54,158 bases of DNA, from assembly GCF_020169415.1 (NCBI RefSeq), contig NZ_JAIULG010000031.1, positions 1 through 54,158 of the forward strand. Reading direction: 5' to 3'. Made by a program: the position numbers and the translations under genes. This DNA is from Tsukamurella sp. M9C (GTDB lineage: Bacteria > Actinomycetota > Actinomycetes > Mycobacteriales > Mycobacteriaceae). This document shows positions 38,314 to 43,998 of this stretch, piece after piece. How positions within the stretch are numbered: the first letter of the stretch is position 1; each line of letters opens with the position of its first letter. The notes under the pieces were generated by a model. The model ran no database searches. It saw only the letters and a program-made list of their open reading frames with translations, and was not told the origin of the DNA.

Positions 38314-39987
38314 GTGGCGCTCACCCTCGTTATCGGTGGGGTCCGCTCGGGCAAGTCCGCGCGCGCCGAGCAGCTGATCGCCGGGTCCGGCGCCCTCGTC
38401 CGGTACGTCGCCACGGCGCCGCGGCCCGACGGTGACCCCGACCTCACGGCGCGGGTGGCCGCGCACCGCGAGCGACGCCCGTCGTCGTGGTCCACCGTCG
38501 AGACGCAGGACCTCCGCGCGGTCCTGTCCGAGGGCTCCGCCCCGACGCTGATCGACGACCTCGGCGGCTGGCTCGCCGCGCGCCTCGACGCGGCCGGCTG
38601 GGAGACCCCCGAGAACGTGCAGCCCGATCTCGACGGCCTCGTGGCCGCCGCGGCGGCGTACGCGGGCGAGCTGGTCATCGTGAGCCCCGAGGTGGGCCTG
38701 TCGCTGGTCGCCGAGACGCACGCGGGCCGCGTCTTCCAGGACCTGCTGGGCACGCTCAACGGCCGGCTCGCGGCGATCGCCGACCGGGCCGAGCTCGTCG
38801 TCGCCGGGATCCCCGTCCTGCTCGACGGTGCGCCCTCCCCCGTGGCCGCGGCGGCCCCCGCCGCGAGCCTGGTCAAGCCCGTGCCGGAGGTGCCGCAGGC
38901 GCCGCCGATCGTGCTCCCGCCGTTCGAGCCGGGCGCCGACCCGCTGGCCTTCCCGCAGCTCTCCCCGCCGGATCCGTTCGTGGGCCGCGAGGCGCGCGAC
39001 CGCCAGTTGGAGCTGACCAAGCCGGCGGGCTCGCTGGGCCGCCTGGAGCAGCTCGGCGAGTGGATCGCCGCGTGCCAGGGCGTGTGCCCGCCGAAGCAGT
39101 TCGAGCGCGCGCGCATCGTGGTCTTCGCCGGGGATCACGGCGTGGCCGCGGGCGGCGTCTCGGCCTACCCGCCGGAGGTCACGGCGCAGATGGTGGCGAA
39201 CTTCGCCGCCGACGGCGCTGCGATCAACGTGCTCGCCGCGCAGGCCGGCGCGACGGTCCGCATCGAGGACATCGCCGTCGCCGGCGATACCCGCGAGGAC
39301 CTGAGCCGCAACAAGATCCGCCGCTCGTCGGGCGACATCGCCGTGACCGACGCGCTCACCGACGAGGAGACGATCGCCGCGATCGCCGCGGGCCGCCGGA
39401 TCGCCGACGAGGAGATCGACTCCGGCGCCGACCTGCTCATCGCCGGCGACATGGGCATCGGCAACACGACGCCCGCCGCGGTGCTGGTCGGCGCGCTCAC
39501 CGACACCGAGCCCGTTCTCGTCGTGGGCCGCGGTACCGGCATCGACGACAACGCCTGGATGCGCAAGGCCGCCGCGATCCGCGACGGCATGTACCGCGCG
39601 CGCCCGCACGTCGGCAACCCGAAGGCGCTGCTGCGCACCGTCGCCGGGGCGGACCTGGCCGCGATGGCCGGGTTCCTGGCGCAGGCCGCGGTGCGGCGCA
39701 CGCCGGTGATCCTCGACGGCGTCGTGGTCACGGCGGCCGCACTGGTCGCGAACGACCTCGCCCCCGGTGCGGTGAGCTGGTGGGTCGCCGGGCACAAGAG
39801 CCCCGAGCCCGCGCACGCCCTCGCGCTGCACCGCCTGGACCTCGAGCCCCTGCTCGACCTCGGCCTGCGGCTCGGCGAGGGCAGCGGCGCGGCGCTCGCG
39901 CTGCCCCTGGTGCGCTCGGCCGTGGCCGTCCTCGGCGAGATGGCGACCTTCGATGCGGCCGGCGTGTCCGGGAAGGCCGCCGACTGA
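38314..39987 (+). CDS. cobUT: Fused adenosylcobinamide kinase/guanylyltransferase (CobU) and DMB phosphoribosyltransferase (CobT)
   Basis: 557 aa, two enzymes in one chain. Residues 1-175 are CobU: P-loop [39 protein letters not shown] with the His that is guanylylated, [12 protein letters not shown], and [24 protein letters not shown] Pro/Ala linker (about 180-220) leads to Cob[59 protein letters not shown], and [16 protein letters not shown] with the catalytic Glu. Together they activate cobinamide and make alpha-ribazole phosphate. In M. tuberculosis cobU (Rv0254c) and cobT (Rv2207) are separate genes. GTG start. The fusion sits at the cobT site, so cobU appears to have joined cobT here. 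Confidence 0.92.
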
Positions 39988-39988
39988 C

Positions 39989-40756
39989 GTGCGGCACCTC
40001 GCCGCCACCGTCGCCTGGATGACGGTGCTGCCCGTGCCCGGTTCGCTGCAGCCGAGCCCGGTCACGCGGGCCGACGGTGCCCGCATCATCGCCCTCGTGC
40101 CCCTCGCCGGCGCGCTCGTCGGCGCCGCCGTGGCCGCGGTCGCCTGGGCCGCCCACGCCGCGGGCCTGCCGGCGGTGCTCGTCGGCGCCCTGGCCGTCGG
40201 CGCCGGGGCGCTCCTGACGCGCGGCATGCACCTCGATGGCTTCGCGGACTGCGTCGACGGTCTCGGCAGCTACGGATCGCCGGAGCGGGCGCGGGAGATC
40301 ATGCGGCAGGGCACCGTCGGGCCGTTCGGCGCCGCCGCGCTGGCACTGCTGCTGATCGCGGGGTCCGCGGCCGTCGGCGGGCTCGCGGACCGCGGGGCGT
40401 GGCTCGCGATCGGTGTCGCCGTGGGCGCCGCCCGGACGGCCGCGGTGCTCGGCTGCCGGCGCGGCTGGGCACCGTCGAACCCCGACGGCTTCGGCGCGCT
40501 GACGGCGGGCACGCAGGGCCTTGCGACGCAGGGGTCCTGGGTCGTGATCGCGCTGGCCGCGGCCGTCCCGGCGGTGCCCGGGCGCCCGTGGCAGGGGCCG
40601 CTCGCCGTCGCGGTGGGGCTGCTCGTCGCGGCCCTCGCGATGCGGCACTGCGTGCGCCGGTTCGGCGGGATGAGCGGCGACGTCCTGGGTTTCGGCATCG
40701 AGCTCGCGACGGTGAGTGCCCTGGTGGGACTGAGCGTGACGGAGGGATGGATGTGA
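39989..40756 (+). CDS. cobS: Adenosylcobinamide-GDP ribazoletransferase (cobalamin synthase)
   Basis: 255 aa integral membrane enzyme that joins adenosylcobinamide-GDP and alpha-ribazole(-phosphate). The conserved acidic, metal-binding signature is clear: RGMHLDGFADCVDGLGSYGSPERAREIMRQGTVGPFG, with further family stretches LPVP near the N-terminus and GCRRGWAPSNPDGFGALTAG. About six helices follow. GTG 39989 starts 1 base after the cobUT stop. Its stop overlaps the next gene's start. No other cobalamin genes lie in the window, so only the lower-loop assembly steps are here. Confidence 0.93.
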   Translation: MRHLAATVAWMTVLPVPGSLQPSPVTRADGARIIALVPLAGALVGAAVAAVAWAAHAAGLPAVLVGALAVGAGALLTRGMHLDGFADCVDGLGSYGSPERAREIMRQGTVGPFGAAALALLLIAGSAAVGGLADRGAWLAIGVAVGAARTAAVLGCRRGWAPSNPDGFGALTAGTQGLATQGSWVVIALAAAVPAVPGRPWQGPLAVAVGLLVAALAMRHCVRRFGGMSGDVLGFGIELATVSALVGLSVTEGWM

Positions 40757-41607
40757 TCGACTCGCGATTGCGGGACCTGGGACCGAGTGCGTCGGCGGAC
40801 GAGCTGGAAGCGGCGTTCTTCCGCAGCGTGGTGTATGCGCCGCTGCGCGGTCTGAACAAGCGCGGCGCGGGCCCGCGGGACTTCGTCACGCGGTCGGTGG
40901 CGAAAGTTCCGCATGTCCGCGTCTTCGTCGACGAGGCGCAGCTGAGGTCCACCCCGCGGGTGGGCTCGTGGTTCGAGCGGATGACGGGTCGCGAGCTGCT
41001 CACGCTCGTACCTCCAGGGCAGGGCATCGAGCTCACGATCGGCGACCGGGTCGCGCGTGCAGCCGCGGGGACGGTCGAGGAGGTCTCAGCGTTGGCGGCC
41101 GAACGGATCCGGCAGTCCCGCGCGCGGTTCACGCCTCCGGCGTCGCGGGGCCTGTCGCCGATGGCGTTCAGGGACTTCCAGGACTCGATCTTCGCGATGC
41201 TCGCGGTGTTCACCTCGACGTTCCGCGCGGCGCATCCGACCGCCGAGGAGGCGTCGATCGTGGTGCGCTACGCCGGCACGGCGGCGCAGGGGCGGGTGAC
41301 CTTCGTCGATCAGGACGGCGTTGCGCGCGTCGAGCCGGTCGCGGATGACGCACTGGCCTCGGCCGCCCGGCTCCGCACCGGCACGGCGGCCGATTCGGTG
41401 GGCGCGTGGTTCTCGTTGTACTCGGAGTTCGACCCGCGCCAGTCGGGAGGAACCTTCGTCTACCCCAAGTTCAATTGGGACCACGAACCGCACTGGGACC
41501 CGGAGATTCCCGCGGTCCACTACGCCGACGAGCTCCGGCAGCACCCGCGCGACCTGCGGTTCGTTCCCGACTGGCTGCTGCTGCGCTGCGAGGAGGCGAC
41601 CCGATGA
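40753..41607 (+). CDS. SseB-like N-terminal / YezG-like C-terminal protein (immunity-like, tentative)
   Basis: 284 aa, soluble. The N-terminal half resembles SseB-type domains (ADELEAAFFRSVVYAPLRG, FVDEAQL, LTLVPPGQGIELTIGD); the C-terminal half has an alpha/beta pattern and the aromatic stretch VGAWFSLYSEFDPRQSGGTFVYPKFNWDHEPHW, which recalls DUF600/YezG antitoxins. These assignments are from pattern memory and are weak. GTG 40753 was chosen because GGAGGG lies six bases upstream and it overlaps the cobS stop as GTGA; ATG 40747 would sit on the Shine-Dalgarno. It is coupled to the next gene by a 4-base ATGA overlap. Confidence 0.62.
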   Translation: MIDSRLRDLGPSASADELEAAFFRSVVYAPLRGLNKRGAGPRDFVTRSVAKVPHVRVFVDEAQLRSTPRVGSWFERMTGRELLTLVPPGQGIELTIGDRVARAAAGTVEEVSALAAERIRQSRARFTPPASRGLSPMAFRDFQDSIFAMLAVFTSTFRAAHPTAEEASIVVRYAGTAAQGRVTFVDQDGVARVEPVADDALASAARLRTGTAADSVGAWFSLYSEFDPRQSGGTFVYPKFNWDHEPHWDPEIPAVHYADELRQHPRDLRFVPDWLLLRCEEATR

Positions 41608-42212
41608 CCGATCACGGCGACATGATGGAATACCGCCACCAGGCGCGGGATTCGAGCTACGAGGAGTTCGTGCGGAAGGTCGACGTCGCCCGTGTCGTAC
41701 GCCTCCAGCACGACCTGGATCTCGACCCGGAGAACGGGTGGACCAACGTCCTGCACGGGGCGCTCCGGAACGACTCGATCGAAGCCCGGGTCCGGATCAC
41801 CGAGGCGCTGCTCGACGCCGGGTGGAAGGTCGGCCGGATCGACCTCGCGATCATGTTCGAACACCACGTTCACGATGCGGAGCTGGAACTGCCGTTGCTG
41901 GCCCGCCTGCTGGACGGGGGCAGCGATCCGCTGGCCGTCGTGAAGGGCGGCGACCGAGCGATCCAGCTGCTCGGCATGGGCCGCGGGGGCCCCTTCGGAA
42001 GCGAACGGGATCCGCTCCGCGACCTCCTGTTCGATCGCCCCGGGATGGACTTCACCCGACGGACCACCGACGGCTCGACGATCCTGCGCACACACCTGCG
42101 CAGCCGCCCGTACACGATGGACTCACTCACCCGGGTCCTGGACTACATGGAGCGGTTCGGCCCCGCCGCACCGAGACTCGGCGAGGACCCGCGGGACAAC
42201 TTCCCGGTCTGA
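41604..42212 (+). CDS. Unknown soluble protein with ankyrin-like helices
   Basis: 202 aa, acidic, no signal peptide or membrane helix. Helical pairs such as NGWTNVLHGALRNDSIEARVRITEALLDAGWKV, IDLAIMFEHHVHDAELELPLLARLLDGGSDPLAV, and DGSTILRTHLRSRPYTMDSLTRVLDYM look like degenerate ankyrin repeats (the T-x-L-H and L-L-x-x-G patterns). Ankyrin-like solenoids are frequent among immunity proteins of polymorphic toxin systems. No toxin gene is adjacent. Its ATG overlaps the previous stop (ATGA), so both are one translational unit. Confidence 0.62.
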   Translation: MTDHGDMMEYRHQARDSSYEEFVRKVDVARVVRLQHDLDLDPENGWTNVLHGALRNDSIEARVRITEALLDAGWKVGRIDLAIMFEHHVHDAELELPLLARLLDGGSDPLAVVKGGDRAIQLLGMGRGGPFGSERDPLRDLLFDRPGMDFTRRTTDGSTILRTHLRSRPYTMDSLTRVLDYMERFGPAAPRLGEDPRDNFPV

Positions 42213-42286
42213 GCCGAGCGGCCCGGGGGGTTCGCACGCAACCGGTCCGCAAGCGCCCGCCAAGCACGGTGAGCGAGGCTCACGAC

Positions 42287-42721
42287 ATGACCTACGACGA
42301 CGCCGGGTGGCACTCCGATACCATCGCCGAGCTGGGCCTGCCCGAGGAGGCGGCGGGTACGCACATCGGCATGTTCTACGCGTGGGCCCGCGCCCGCGGC
42401 CTGGCGAGCGGCACGCACCTGGAGCACGGCGTCGACGGCGAGGTTCCCGACGAGTCCCTCCCGCTGCTCGACGAGCGCACGATCACCCCCGGCGCGTACC
42501 TGGACCAGTACCTCGACGGACAGCTCGACCCCAGCTTCCTCACCGCCGAGGGCTGCGCGTTCGTCGAGGCGGAGTACGACGCCTACCTCGAGTCCTACGA
42601 GCGGATCCCCGCCGTCGCGGCGGCCGCCAGCATGTACGCCGCGCCCGACACGTGGCTGCTCTACAACGCGGTCGAGCCGGTGCTCGACGAGCTCTACGCG
42701 CAGTGGAAGGGCCGTCGCTGA
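42287..42721 (+). CDS. DUF7832-like small protein
   Basis: 144 aa. The pattern YDDAGWHS, GTHIGMFYAWARARGLAS, ERTITPGAYLDQYLDGQLDPSFLTAEGCAFVEAEYDAYLESYE and PDTWLLYNAVEPVLDELYAQWK matches what I recall of DUF7832 proteins, a family seen in immunity-gene neighbourhoods. Function unproven. ATG 42287 gives the family N-terminus; a GTG six codons earlier is in frame. It lies 74 bases after the ankyrin-like gene on the same strand, making the third small soluble gene in a row. Confidence 0.68.
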   Translation: MTYDDAGWHSDTIAELGLPEEAAGTHIGMFYAWARARGLASGTHLEHGVDGEVPDESLPLLDERTITPGAYLDQYLDGQLDPSFLTAEGCAFVEAEYDAYLESYERIPAVAAAASMYAAPDTWLLYNAVEPVLDELYAQWKGRR

Positions 42722-42783
42722 CCGGTTGGGGTCCGCCTGCCGGGGACTCGACAACAGGCGTTGTCAGGAGTAGACACAGGGGT

Positions 42784-43998
42784 GTGACGACAGTGGACAC
42801 CCCGAGGCCCATCCCCGCGCGCCACCCCGCGCGACCGCGGCGGGTGCCGCCGGGTATCCGCATGGTGAGCGCGGCGCTCCGCCTCCCCGAGCCCACCGAC
42901 GCCGAGTTCCGGCGGTTCGGCGAGCTGCTCACCGTCGGGGACGCGCCGATGGACGAGCTCGTCGAGTGGATCTACGAGGACCGCGAGACACGCAAGCCGA
43001 TGTTCGACCGCGCCCTGAACGAGGGCATCGCGTCCGTCCCGGAGGCTCCCGGCATGCTGCGGGCGTTCTTCGAGGACATGGAGACCGCCCCGGAGTGGGT
43101 CGACTGGGACAAGATCCTCCTCGGCGGCCAGCTCATGCGCAGCGGCGGCGCGGACGGCTTCTCGATCGCGCGCGACGTCGCCCTGATGGGCGGGTACCTC
43201 TTCTCGGGCTTCAACCAGACCCTGCTGCGCACGGGCGCGCTGGAGAAGGGCTCGAACAAGCGGTTCGCGGAGACCTCGCAGTGGGCGCTCGACGTGATCG
43301 TGCCGGAGGGCCTGCGGCCCGGCGGCGCCGGCTACCGGTCCACGCTGCACGTGCGGTTCATCCACTCGATGGTGCGCCGGCACGTCATGGCCCTGCCGGA
43401 CTGGGACTACGAGACCTACGGCCTGCCGATCAACCAGACGGACATGGCGGCCACGCTGGTCGGCGCGCTGATCGCCCCGGTCGCCACCGGGACCGGCATC
43501 GGGATGGTCGCCAGCCCGCGCGAGTACGAGGCGGCCGCGCACCTCACGCGGTACGTCGGCCGACTGATGGGCGTGCACGACGACTTCCTGCCGCACAGCT
43601 TCCGCGACAGCCTTCGGATCCTGTTCCAGACCTCGCGGGCGCTCTCGACCCCCGACGACACCAGCAAGGCGCTCGCGCAGCCGATGGCCGACGACCCCAT
43701 GCTGTGGCGGTACGGCCACCTCACGGGGCTGCGGCGCCGGATCGCGCGCTCGCAGCACCTGTCGATCGCGACCGCCTACCTGGGCACGGCGGCGATGAAG
43801 GAGCTCGGCGTCCCGTCGACCCTCCCCTGGTACCCGGCGCTCCGGATCCCGTACCACCTCGTCGAATCGGTGCTCAACCAGCTCCCCGGGGGCCGCGAGC
43901 GCGCCGCCCGCCGCGGCGACGTGGGTCAGGCCAAGTTCATGCGCACGCTGAACGAGGAGGCCGCCGTCGGCCACTCCGCCCAGCACGTCACGCACTAG
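42784..43998 (+). CDS. Oxygenase MpaB / rubber-oxygenase-like (DUF2236) haem protein
   Basis: 404 aa, mostly helical. The DUF2236 core is seen in ALMGGYLFSGFNQTLLRTGALEKGSNKRFAETSQWALDV (Gly-Lys region before the haem pocket), YRSTLHVRFIHSMVRRHVM (the R-V-R-x-x-H-x-x-V-R signature with the presumed haem His) and WDYETYGLPINQTDMAATLVG. Members include latex-clearing protein Lcp and fungal MpaB; the natural substrate in actinobacteria is usually unknown. There is no signal peptide, so it is probably intracellular, unlike secreted Lcp. GTG 42784 was chosen; a second GTG at 42793 is possible. Two inverted repeats lie just downstream. Confidence 0.82.
   Translation: MTTVDTPRPIPARHPARPRRVPPGIRMVSAALRLPEPTDAEFRRFGELLTVGDAPMDELVEWIYEDRETRKPMFDRALNEGIASVPEAPGMLRAFFEDMETAPEWVDWDKILLGGQLMRSGGADGFSIARDVALMGGYLFSGFNQTLLRTGALEKGSNKRFAETSQWALDVIVPEGLRPGGAGYRSTLHVRFIHSMVRRHVMALPDWDYETYGLPINQTDMAATLVGALIAPVATGTGIGMVASPREYEAAAHLTRYVGRLMGVHDDFLPHSFRDSLRILFQTSRALSTPDDTSKALAQPMADDPMLWRYGHLTGLRRRIARSQHLSIATAYLGTAAMKELGVPSTLPWYPALRIPYHLVESVLNQLPGGRERAARRGDVGQAKFMRTLNEEAAVGHSAQHVTH

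Follow-up and report, generated by a model that had tools for sequence, protein, structure and literature searches.

We analyzed a stretch of 54,158 nucleotides from Tsukamurella sp. M9C (contig NZ_JAIULG010000031.1 of assembly GCF_020169415.1), hereafter the window, which is contig C35 of this strain's genome (G000; 4.73 Mb in 110 contigs). The window carries three short genes, designated A, B, and C, between cobS and an MpaB-like gene (Table 1). Genes A and B are probably an orphan immunity cassette of two genes that was captured directly after cobS; gene C is a separate, older resident and is not part of this claim. Relatives of A and B in other species adjoin putatively secreted DNA-cutting toxins, suggesting that the two genes are probably shields against toxins that neighbors produce and the strain itself probably does not. 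An earlier reading of the sequence alone (the sequence-only reading) had regarded all three as possible orphan immunity genes kept against the toxins of competitors. For A and B, this is well supported by the neighbors of their relatives and by the variability of the slot. For C it is unclear, as no toxin was recognized beside its family, DUF7832, outside the genus.

The genus set comprised 16 Tsukamurella genomes, G000 included. A and B were used as queries against 121 genomes, and profiles were run on 397 genomes of the order. Proteins near the slot were identified using Pfam, for which part of the window frames was scanned. Genomes, contigs, and loci are denoted by G, C, and L numbers, respectively. 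A, B, and C are real genes, as had been read from the sequence; each is an open frame with a gene-type codon-position G+C pattern (G+C at the first, second, and third positions, GC1/GC2/GC3, of.71/.53/.89 in A,.73/.43/.89 in B, and.71/.47/.96 in C).

The slot between cobS and mpaB is accessory and variable among close relatives. cobS was present in 16/16 genus genomes, and the best mpaB match adjoined it in 14 (not in G006 and G007). Among these 14 syntenic genomes, six had near-empty slots, with 41–204 bp between match ends (G001, G003, G008, G009, G011, and G015). C alone was found in three (G002, G004, and G010), C together with TetR and alpha/beta-hydrolase genes in one (G005), and other genes in three, namely GGDEF (G013), DUF222/HNH (G012), and RibD_C (G014). 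Only the window carried A, B, and C. Thus, the comparison of the slot in relatives that the sequence-only reading had proposed revealed variation across the genus, and not the genus-wide fixation of the same three genes that it had named as evidence against itself. Neighbors identified around the slot were CobU/CobT, cobS, DUF7832, MpaB-like, class IV aminotransferase, GcvT, and PfkB genes. In the scanned part of the frames, nothing around the slot was identified as a toxin or a secretion gene. The A and B locus therefore combines immunity-related genes with no toxin among its identified neighbors, which is what defines an orphan or polyimmunity locus.

We aligned the joined flanks of the slot to G004 and G005. 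A and B (~1.5 kb) separate the cobS tail from what had been the leader of C, in the order cobS tail, A, B, ~20 bp, and then sequence common to the G004 cobS–C leader. Neither a toxin remnant nor an obvious flanking repeat was seen at the insertion in the junction alignment. GC3 agrees with these results, being 0.89 for A and B versus 0.94–0.98 for C and the six measured flanking genes (0.96 in C itself). Based on these sequence comparisons, A and B look like a recent, gene-tight insertion beside the resident C, and the three genes are thus not the single cluster for which they had been taken. The start codon of A overlaps the cobS stop as GTGA (40753-40756), and that of B overlaps the A stop as ATGA (41604-41607), both as previously read. 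The cobS frame overruns the stop of its relatives by a few codons (TEGWM; tails of 15 relatives), into the ribosome-binding stretch of A.

The C-terminal half of A is, judging from profile comparisons, a remote relative of YezG/EsaG. Gene A matched 8/121 genomes, its own included, and all other matches covered the C-terminal half only. This half aligned with sister-species proteins of ~140–155 amino acids (aa), with the shared motifs G.WF, D.EP.WD, PR, and P.W. EsaG (8guo and 8gup) was the sole Protein Data Bank (PDB) match of the A C-terminal profile at E ≤ 1 (E 0.071, a weak match over positions 65–104), and YezG-like was the only Pfam family touched by members of the A-type alignment (3/7, best E 0.01). 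Two A-type members scanned separately against YezG-like PF04634 scored 14.9 and 16.5 bits, below the cut-off of 21.7; A is therefore called a remote relative and not a member. Residues 1–140 of A matched no Pfam family and no PDB sequence at E ≤ 10. The former result leaves the SseB_N domain, a further candidate for A, unsupported, so that of the SseB/YezG-like assignment only the remote YezG relationship of the C-terminal half stood. The single-sequence structure model of A was uninformative. The proteins had also been described as acidic, which holds for B (isoelectric point, pI, 5.5), C (pI 4.1), and the C-terminal half of A (pI 5.0) and does not hold for whole A (pI 6.4).

We then located the relatives of A in the genus. 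The A C-terminal profile matched 7/16 genomes, five strongly (E ≤ 1.6e-47) and two weakly (G004 and G010). The strong matches were A of the window and one gene each in G002, G003, G005, and G013. All four of these other strong relatives lie downstream of, and on the same strand as, the only Endonuclea_NS_2 match of their genome, at distances of 28 bp (G002), 1345 bp (G003), 751 bp (G005), and 67 bp (G013). Under random placement, the expected chance of an A-type gene lying within 2 kb of an Endonuclea_NS_2 domain is < 1e-3 per genome. A itself is not paired with such a nuclease and is hence called an orphan.

A similar arrangement was seen outside the genus. The A-type profile matched 105/397 genomes of the order, many of the matches lying within long frames. 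From the listed part of this result, we took 20 stand-alone-looking matches in 18 stretches (open frame of ≤ 201 aa with no inner stop; one match with an inner stop was excluded). In 11 of the 18 stretches, a large frame (1237–1952 aa) is located directly upstream of the A-type gene on the same strand. The last 240 aa of this frame matched Endonuclea_NS_2 in 7/11 (E 1.8e-16 to 1.8e-4; two above the cut-off and five below), the other four frames giving no match, so that 7/18 sampled stand-alone relatives directly follow an Endonuclea_NS_2 domain. One outside-genus A-type locus is linked to the type VII secretion system, because EspC-type, PPE-like, and WXG100-like matches occur there. Large proteins ending in a tuberculosis necrotizing toxin (TNT) domain (PF14021) were observed at L094:7208-10789 (E 3.2e-31), L096:5994-9494 (E 1.4e-30), and L230:1835-5956 (E 8.8e-32). 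In the L094 and L096 proteins, the A-type (YezG-like) domain is the N-terminal part, placing an immunity-like domain ahead of a toxin domain in one chain.

Relatives of B were fewer. Among the 121 genomes, G004 was the only one of the genus with a relative (L100:8889-9431), and a second relative came from outside the genus but within the order (G089, L099). We discarded a further match because it was antisense, and the B profile added only weak matches among the 397 genomes. Just 22 bp separate the start of the G004 relative from the preceding 1591-aa gene, whose product terminates in a GH-E nuclease domain (E 1.7e-10); the relative also overlaps a gene whose SUFU match (E 0.0024) does not reach the cut-off. 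A three-row profile of B and its two relatives matched ankyrin chains (e.g., 4qfv, E 2.8e-7). B alone gave one PDB match (E 0.13), and the L100 relative scored 20.9 bits against Ank_2, below the cut-off of 27.3. The ankyrin-like assignment thus stood for B through the profile of its relatives and not for B alone, and B appears to be ankyrin-like without being a member of the ankyrin family.

One relative of A and one of B were found at a shared toxin platform linked to WXG100. G004 and G005 carry the same locus, consisting of a WXG100 gene, a small gene, and a toxin gene (1591 or 1505 aa). The two toxins share 90–100% identity per 100 columns over the first 1400 columns, and identity then falls to 76, 40, 25, and 20%. 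Their tips are GH-E in G004 and Endonuclea_NS_2 in G005. The B relative follows the G004 toxin, and an A relative follows the G005 toxin after one other frame. The sequence-only reading had noted that no toxin or secretion gene was near; this is correct for the slot, yet a WXG100/EccD polymorphic-toxin locus is present elsewhere in the genome. This copy of the platform (L131, C22:241000-258000) shares 93–98% identity with that of G004 over the first 600 columns, has an ADP-ribosyltransferase-like end, and adjoins WXG100 and EccD genes, DUF4185 also being present in L131. The G011 platform ends in colicin-DNase/WHH. Across the platform loci L131, L100, L092, and L135, the tips comprise ADP-ribosyltransferase-like, GH-E, Endonuclea_NS_2, and colicin-DNase/WHH domains. 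The first 900 residues of the platform were matched in 11/16 genomes, in some partially. GH-E was found in 2/16 genus genomes and was not detected in G000, where gaps among the 110 contigs are possible.

From these arrangements we infer how the system may work, including secretion and delivery of the sister toxins, their binding and neutralization with the resulting protection, and the expression of A and B. Sister species encode a polymorphic toxin next to WXG100 genes; its C-terminal nuclease tip is exchangeable, and genes of immunity type follow closely downstream. The strain studied here has its own copy of the platform with a different tip and, at a separate site, carries relatives of the immunity genes that go with two further tips. 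By analogy with the action of EsaG on EsaD, the YezG/EsaG-like half of A may bind an incoming Endonuclea_NS_2-type tip in the cytoplasm and inactivate it, and B, as an ankyrin-type binder, may likewise inactivate a GH-E (HNH/Endo VII) nuclease tip. A and B are probably expressed by read-through from cobS, with translational coupling at GTGA and ATGA.

Several results weigh against an orphan immunity role of A and B. The resemblance of A to EsaG is weak and was detected through a profile only; gene A matched no Pfam family at E ≤ 10, and its C-terminal domain none at E ≤ 1. B alone matched no ankyrin family in Pfam at E ≤ 10. Residues 1–140 of A have no relative in the 121 queried genomes or the fetched toxin-platform loci. 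A and B had no match when searched against plasmids, nor did B against phages. In G003 and G005, other frames lie between the nuclease and the A relative, the Endonuclea_NS_2 domains of G012 and G015 occur in genomes with no A-type match, and the two weak A-type matches occur in genomes with no Endonuclea_NS_2 match. G000 itself has one Endonuclea_NS_2 domain, located on C33; it belongs to a different subfamily, and a SUKH-like gene comes after it. A nuclease of this Pfam family is therefore not entirely lacking in the genome of A. In 7/18 of the outside-genus stretches, we saw no large frame upstream; in two of these seven, the A-type gene lies beside a frame, and the one tested (L230) has a TNT domain at its end. 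No toxin was recognized alongside the L099 relative of B, so that its toxin context amounts to one of two relatives.

Other explanations were weighed against these data. A and B could be the remains of a complete toxin-immunity module that was inserted after cobS and later lost its toxin. Their relatives do adjoin toxins, and the nuclease domain of G013 (L142, G013:C2:4113447-4114302) has two in-frame TAG stops while the downstream immunity-type gene is open, indicating that a decayed toxin with a kept immunity gene does occur in the genus. However, the insertion is gene-tight with no toxin remnant seen, and the tip type to which A corresponds is not that of B; we consider this origin improbable. 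We also give little credence to a cellular role of A and B unrelated to immunity, in which they would share only folds with immunity proteins. The overlap of A with cobS, the absence of a toxin beside the L099 relative, and the presence of the A-type domain as the N-terminal portion of proteins with a TNT domain in a different family within the order, which also counts against orphan immunity, would fit such a role. In contrast, full-length A was found in none of the other 15 genus genomes, and neither A nor B at their cobS–mpaB slot; the two genes are therefore not needed for cobalamin synthesis. The pairing with Endonuclea_NS_2 nucleases in 4/4 strong genus relatives and 7/18 sampled outside also speaks against a role of this kind.

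The sequence-only reading had further proposed that A, B, and C may together form one undescribed system. The genes are adjacent, short, and on the same strand, and none of them matched a PADLOC family at E ≤ 10; for A and B, no Pfam or NCBIfam family matched at a meaningful score either. This possibility is nevertheless highly improbable. In G002, G004, G005, and G010, C occupies the slot but A and B are absent from it, none of the other queried genomes has both A and B, and B and C are separated by 74 bp, whereas A and B overlap. Capture of A and B as an orphan immunity pair accounts best for the neighbors of their relatives and for the variable slot.

Gene C is a DUF7832 gene, as had been supposed (PF25191, E 6.4e-19, 68.7 bits, cut-off 27). 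DUF7832 was found in 12/121 relatives, and a wider genome collection contained 32 loci, six of them from Tsukamurella. At the 26 outside-genus loci (including L206 and L207), judged by eye, the neighbors looked housekeeping or unrelated and no toxin was recognized. At L197:4923-6402 (Nocardia sp. alder85J), a DUF7832 match lies just downstream of two WXG100 genes, confirmed by Pfam; this was the sole secretion-linked neighbor seen for the family. The structure model of C was confident. No solved structure matched the C profile at E ≤ 0.1 or the model at Foldseek E ≤ 0.9, and the model had no clear relative among viral structures. Residues D4, D5, H26, I27, W33, F92, and W123 were invariant over 32 DUF7832 sequences, and a binding or catalytic site might be built from the polar residues among them. 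No paper naming DUF7832 was found in the literature search.

A second DUF7832 copy follows mpaB in G001, G005, G011, and G014, with a SUKH gene or remnant alongside in 4/4. The SUKH gene is whole in G001 and G005, its match is shortened in G014, and in G011 the match spans 23 residues. The gap after mpaB in L075, L083, L078, and L087 is thus a second variable slot, and the cobS–mpaB–aminotransferase stretch is marked as a place of gain, loss, and decay of such genes. In L087 (G014:C1:2773627-2774360 and DUF7832 downstream), cobS and DUF7832 were each matched in two pieces, possibly because of sequencing error, as this genome is rated 83% complete.

A wider proposal can be made for A and C. The N-terminal half of A might be a new immunity domain against a third tip, so that A and B would shield against three toxin types swapped on one sister-species platform, and DUF7832, found near SUKH genes and once after a WXG100 pair, might be a further immunity family with a fold not among solved structures. 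We regard this combination as rather unlikely.

Table 1 Features of the cobS–mpaB slot in the window.
Feature	Position	Strand	Evidence
cobS, left flank of the slot	39953..40756	+	PF02654 E 3.6e-41; junction alignment; tails of 15 relatives
GGAGGG, likely Shine-Dalgarno sequence of gene A, within the cobS end	40741..40746	+	sequence; inference
Putative A+B insertion, reaching approximately from the cobS tail to the leader of C; estimated boundaries	40733..42230	.	
Gene A, 284 aa; unmatched N-terminal half and putatively YezG/EsaG-related C-terminal half	40753..41607	+	
Gene A C-terminal domain (residues 140-284), common to genes following Endonuclea_NS_2 domains (sister species and elsewhere in the order)	41170..41604	+	
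Gene B, 202 aa, putatively ankyrin-like; genus relative follows a GH-E nuclease-tipped toxin gene	41604..42212	+	
Gene C, 144 aa, DUF7832, older slot resident	42287..42721	+	
MpaB-like gene, right flank of the slot	42769..43998	+	PF09995 E 3e-16

Orphan immunity and polyimmunity are already known in kind. EsaG and YezG are reported to inhibit nuclease tips (PMC9616950), and orphan esaG genes are reported in Staphylococcus aureus strains without esaD (PMC9484751). Zhang et al. 2012 (PMC3482391) describe polyimmunity loci and the Imm36 (DUF600), Imm-Ank, SuFu, and SUKH families; they list Tox-NucA as the main partner of Imm36, Tox-AHH as that of Imm-Ank, and Tox-GHE as one of several partners of SuFu. 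For A and B, neither the place nor the host nor the pairings were found in the literature searched, which consisted partly of listings and the beginnings of abstracts, and the matches listed for type VII secretion and polymorphic toxins made no mention of Tsukamurella. As the tips of the sister species are known and a single strain holds two predicted shields, the idea is open to a direct test.

A resembles EsaG/YezG (PF04634, DUF600, Imm36) in that its profile weakly matches EsaG and its relatives pair with Endonuclea_NS_2, some of them beside WXG100 genes. Unlike these proteins, A lies below the Pfam cut-off and has an additional unmatched N-terminal half. Since neither A (for PF04634) nor B (for the ankyrin families) reaches the cut-off, we say that they work like these families and not that they belong to them. 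A is located after cobS and not at the 3' end of the secretion locus. The B relative pairs with a GH-E tip and not with AHH, the partner given for Imm-Ank by Zhang et al. As in the polyimmunity loci described there, a few immunity-type genes of differing kinds stand together with no toxin; unlike in those loci, the set has only two genes, and the sister slots carry unrelated cargo (GGDEF, DUF222/HNH, RibD_C, and TetR with hydrolase). EsaG-type orphan immunity has been described for firmicutes, whereas A and its relatives reside in mycolic-acid actinobacteria, where gene neighborhood connects the relatives with a polymorphic toxin that is linked to WXG100 and bears different tips in different sister species. 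Thus, a known kind of immunity locus is probably represented here in a new place.

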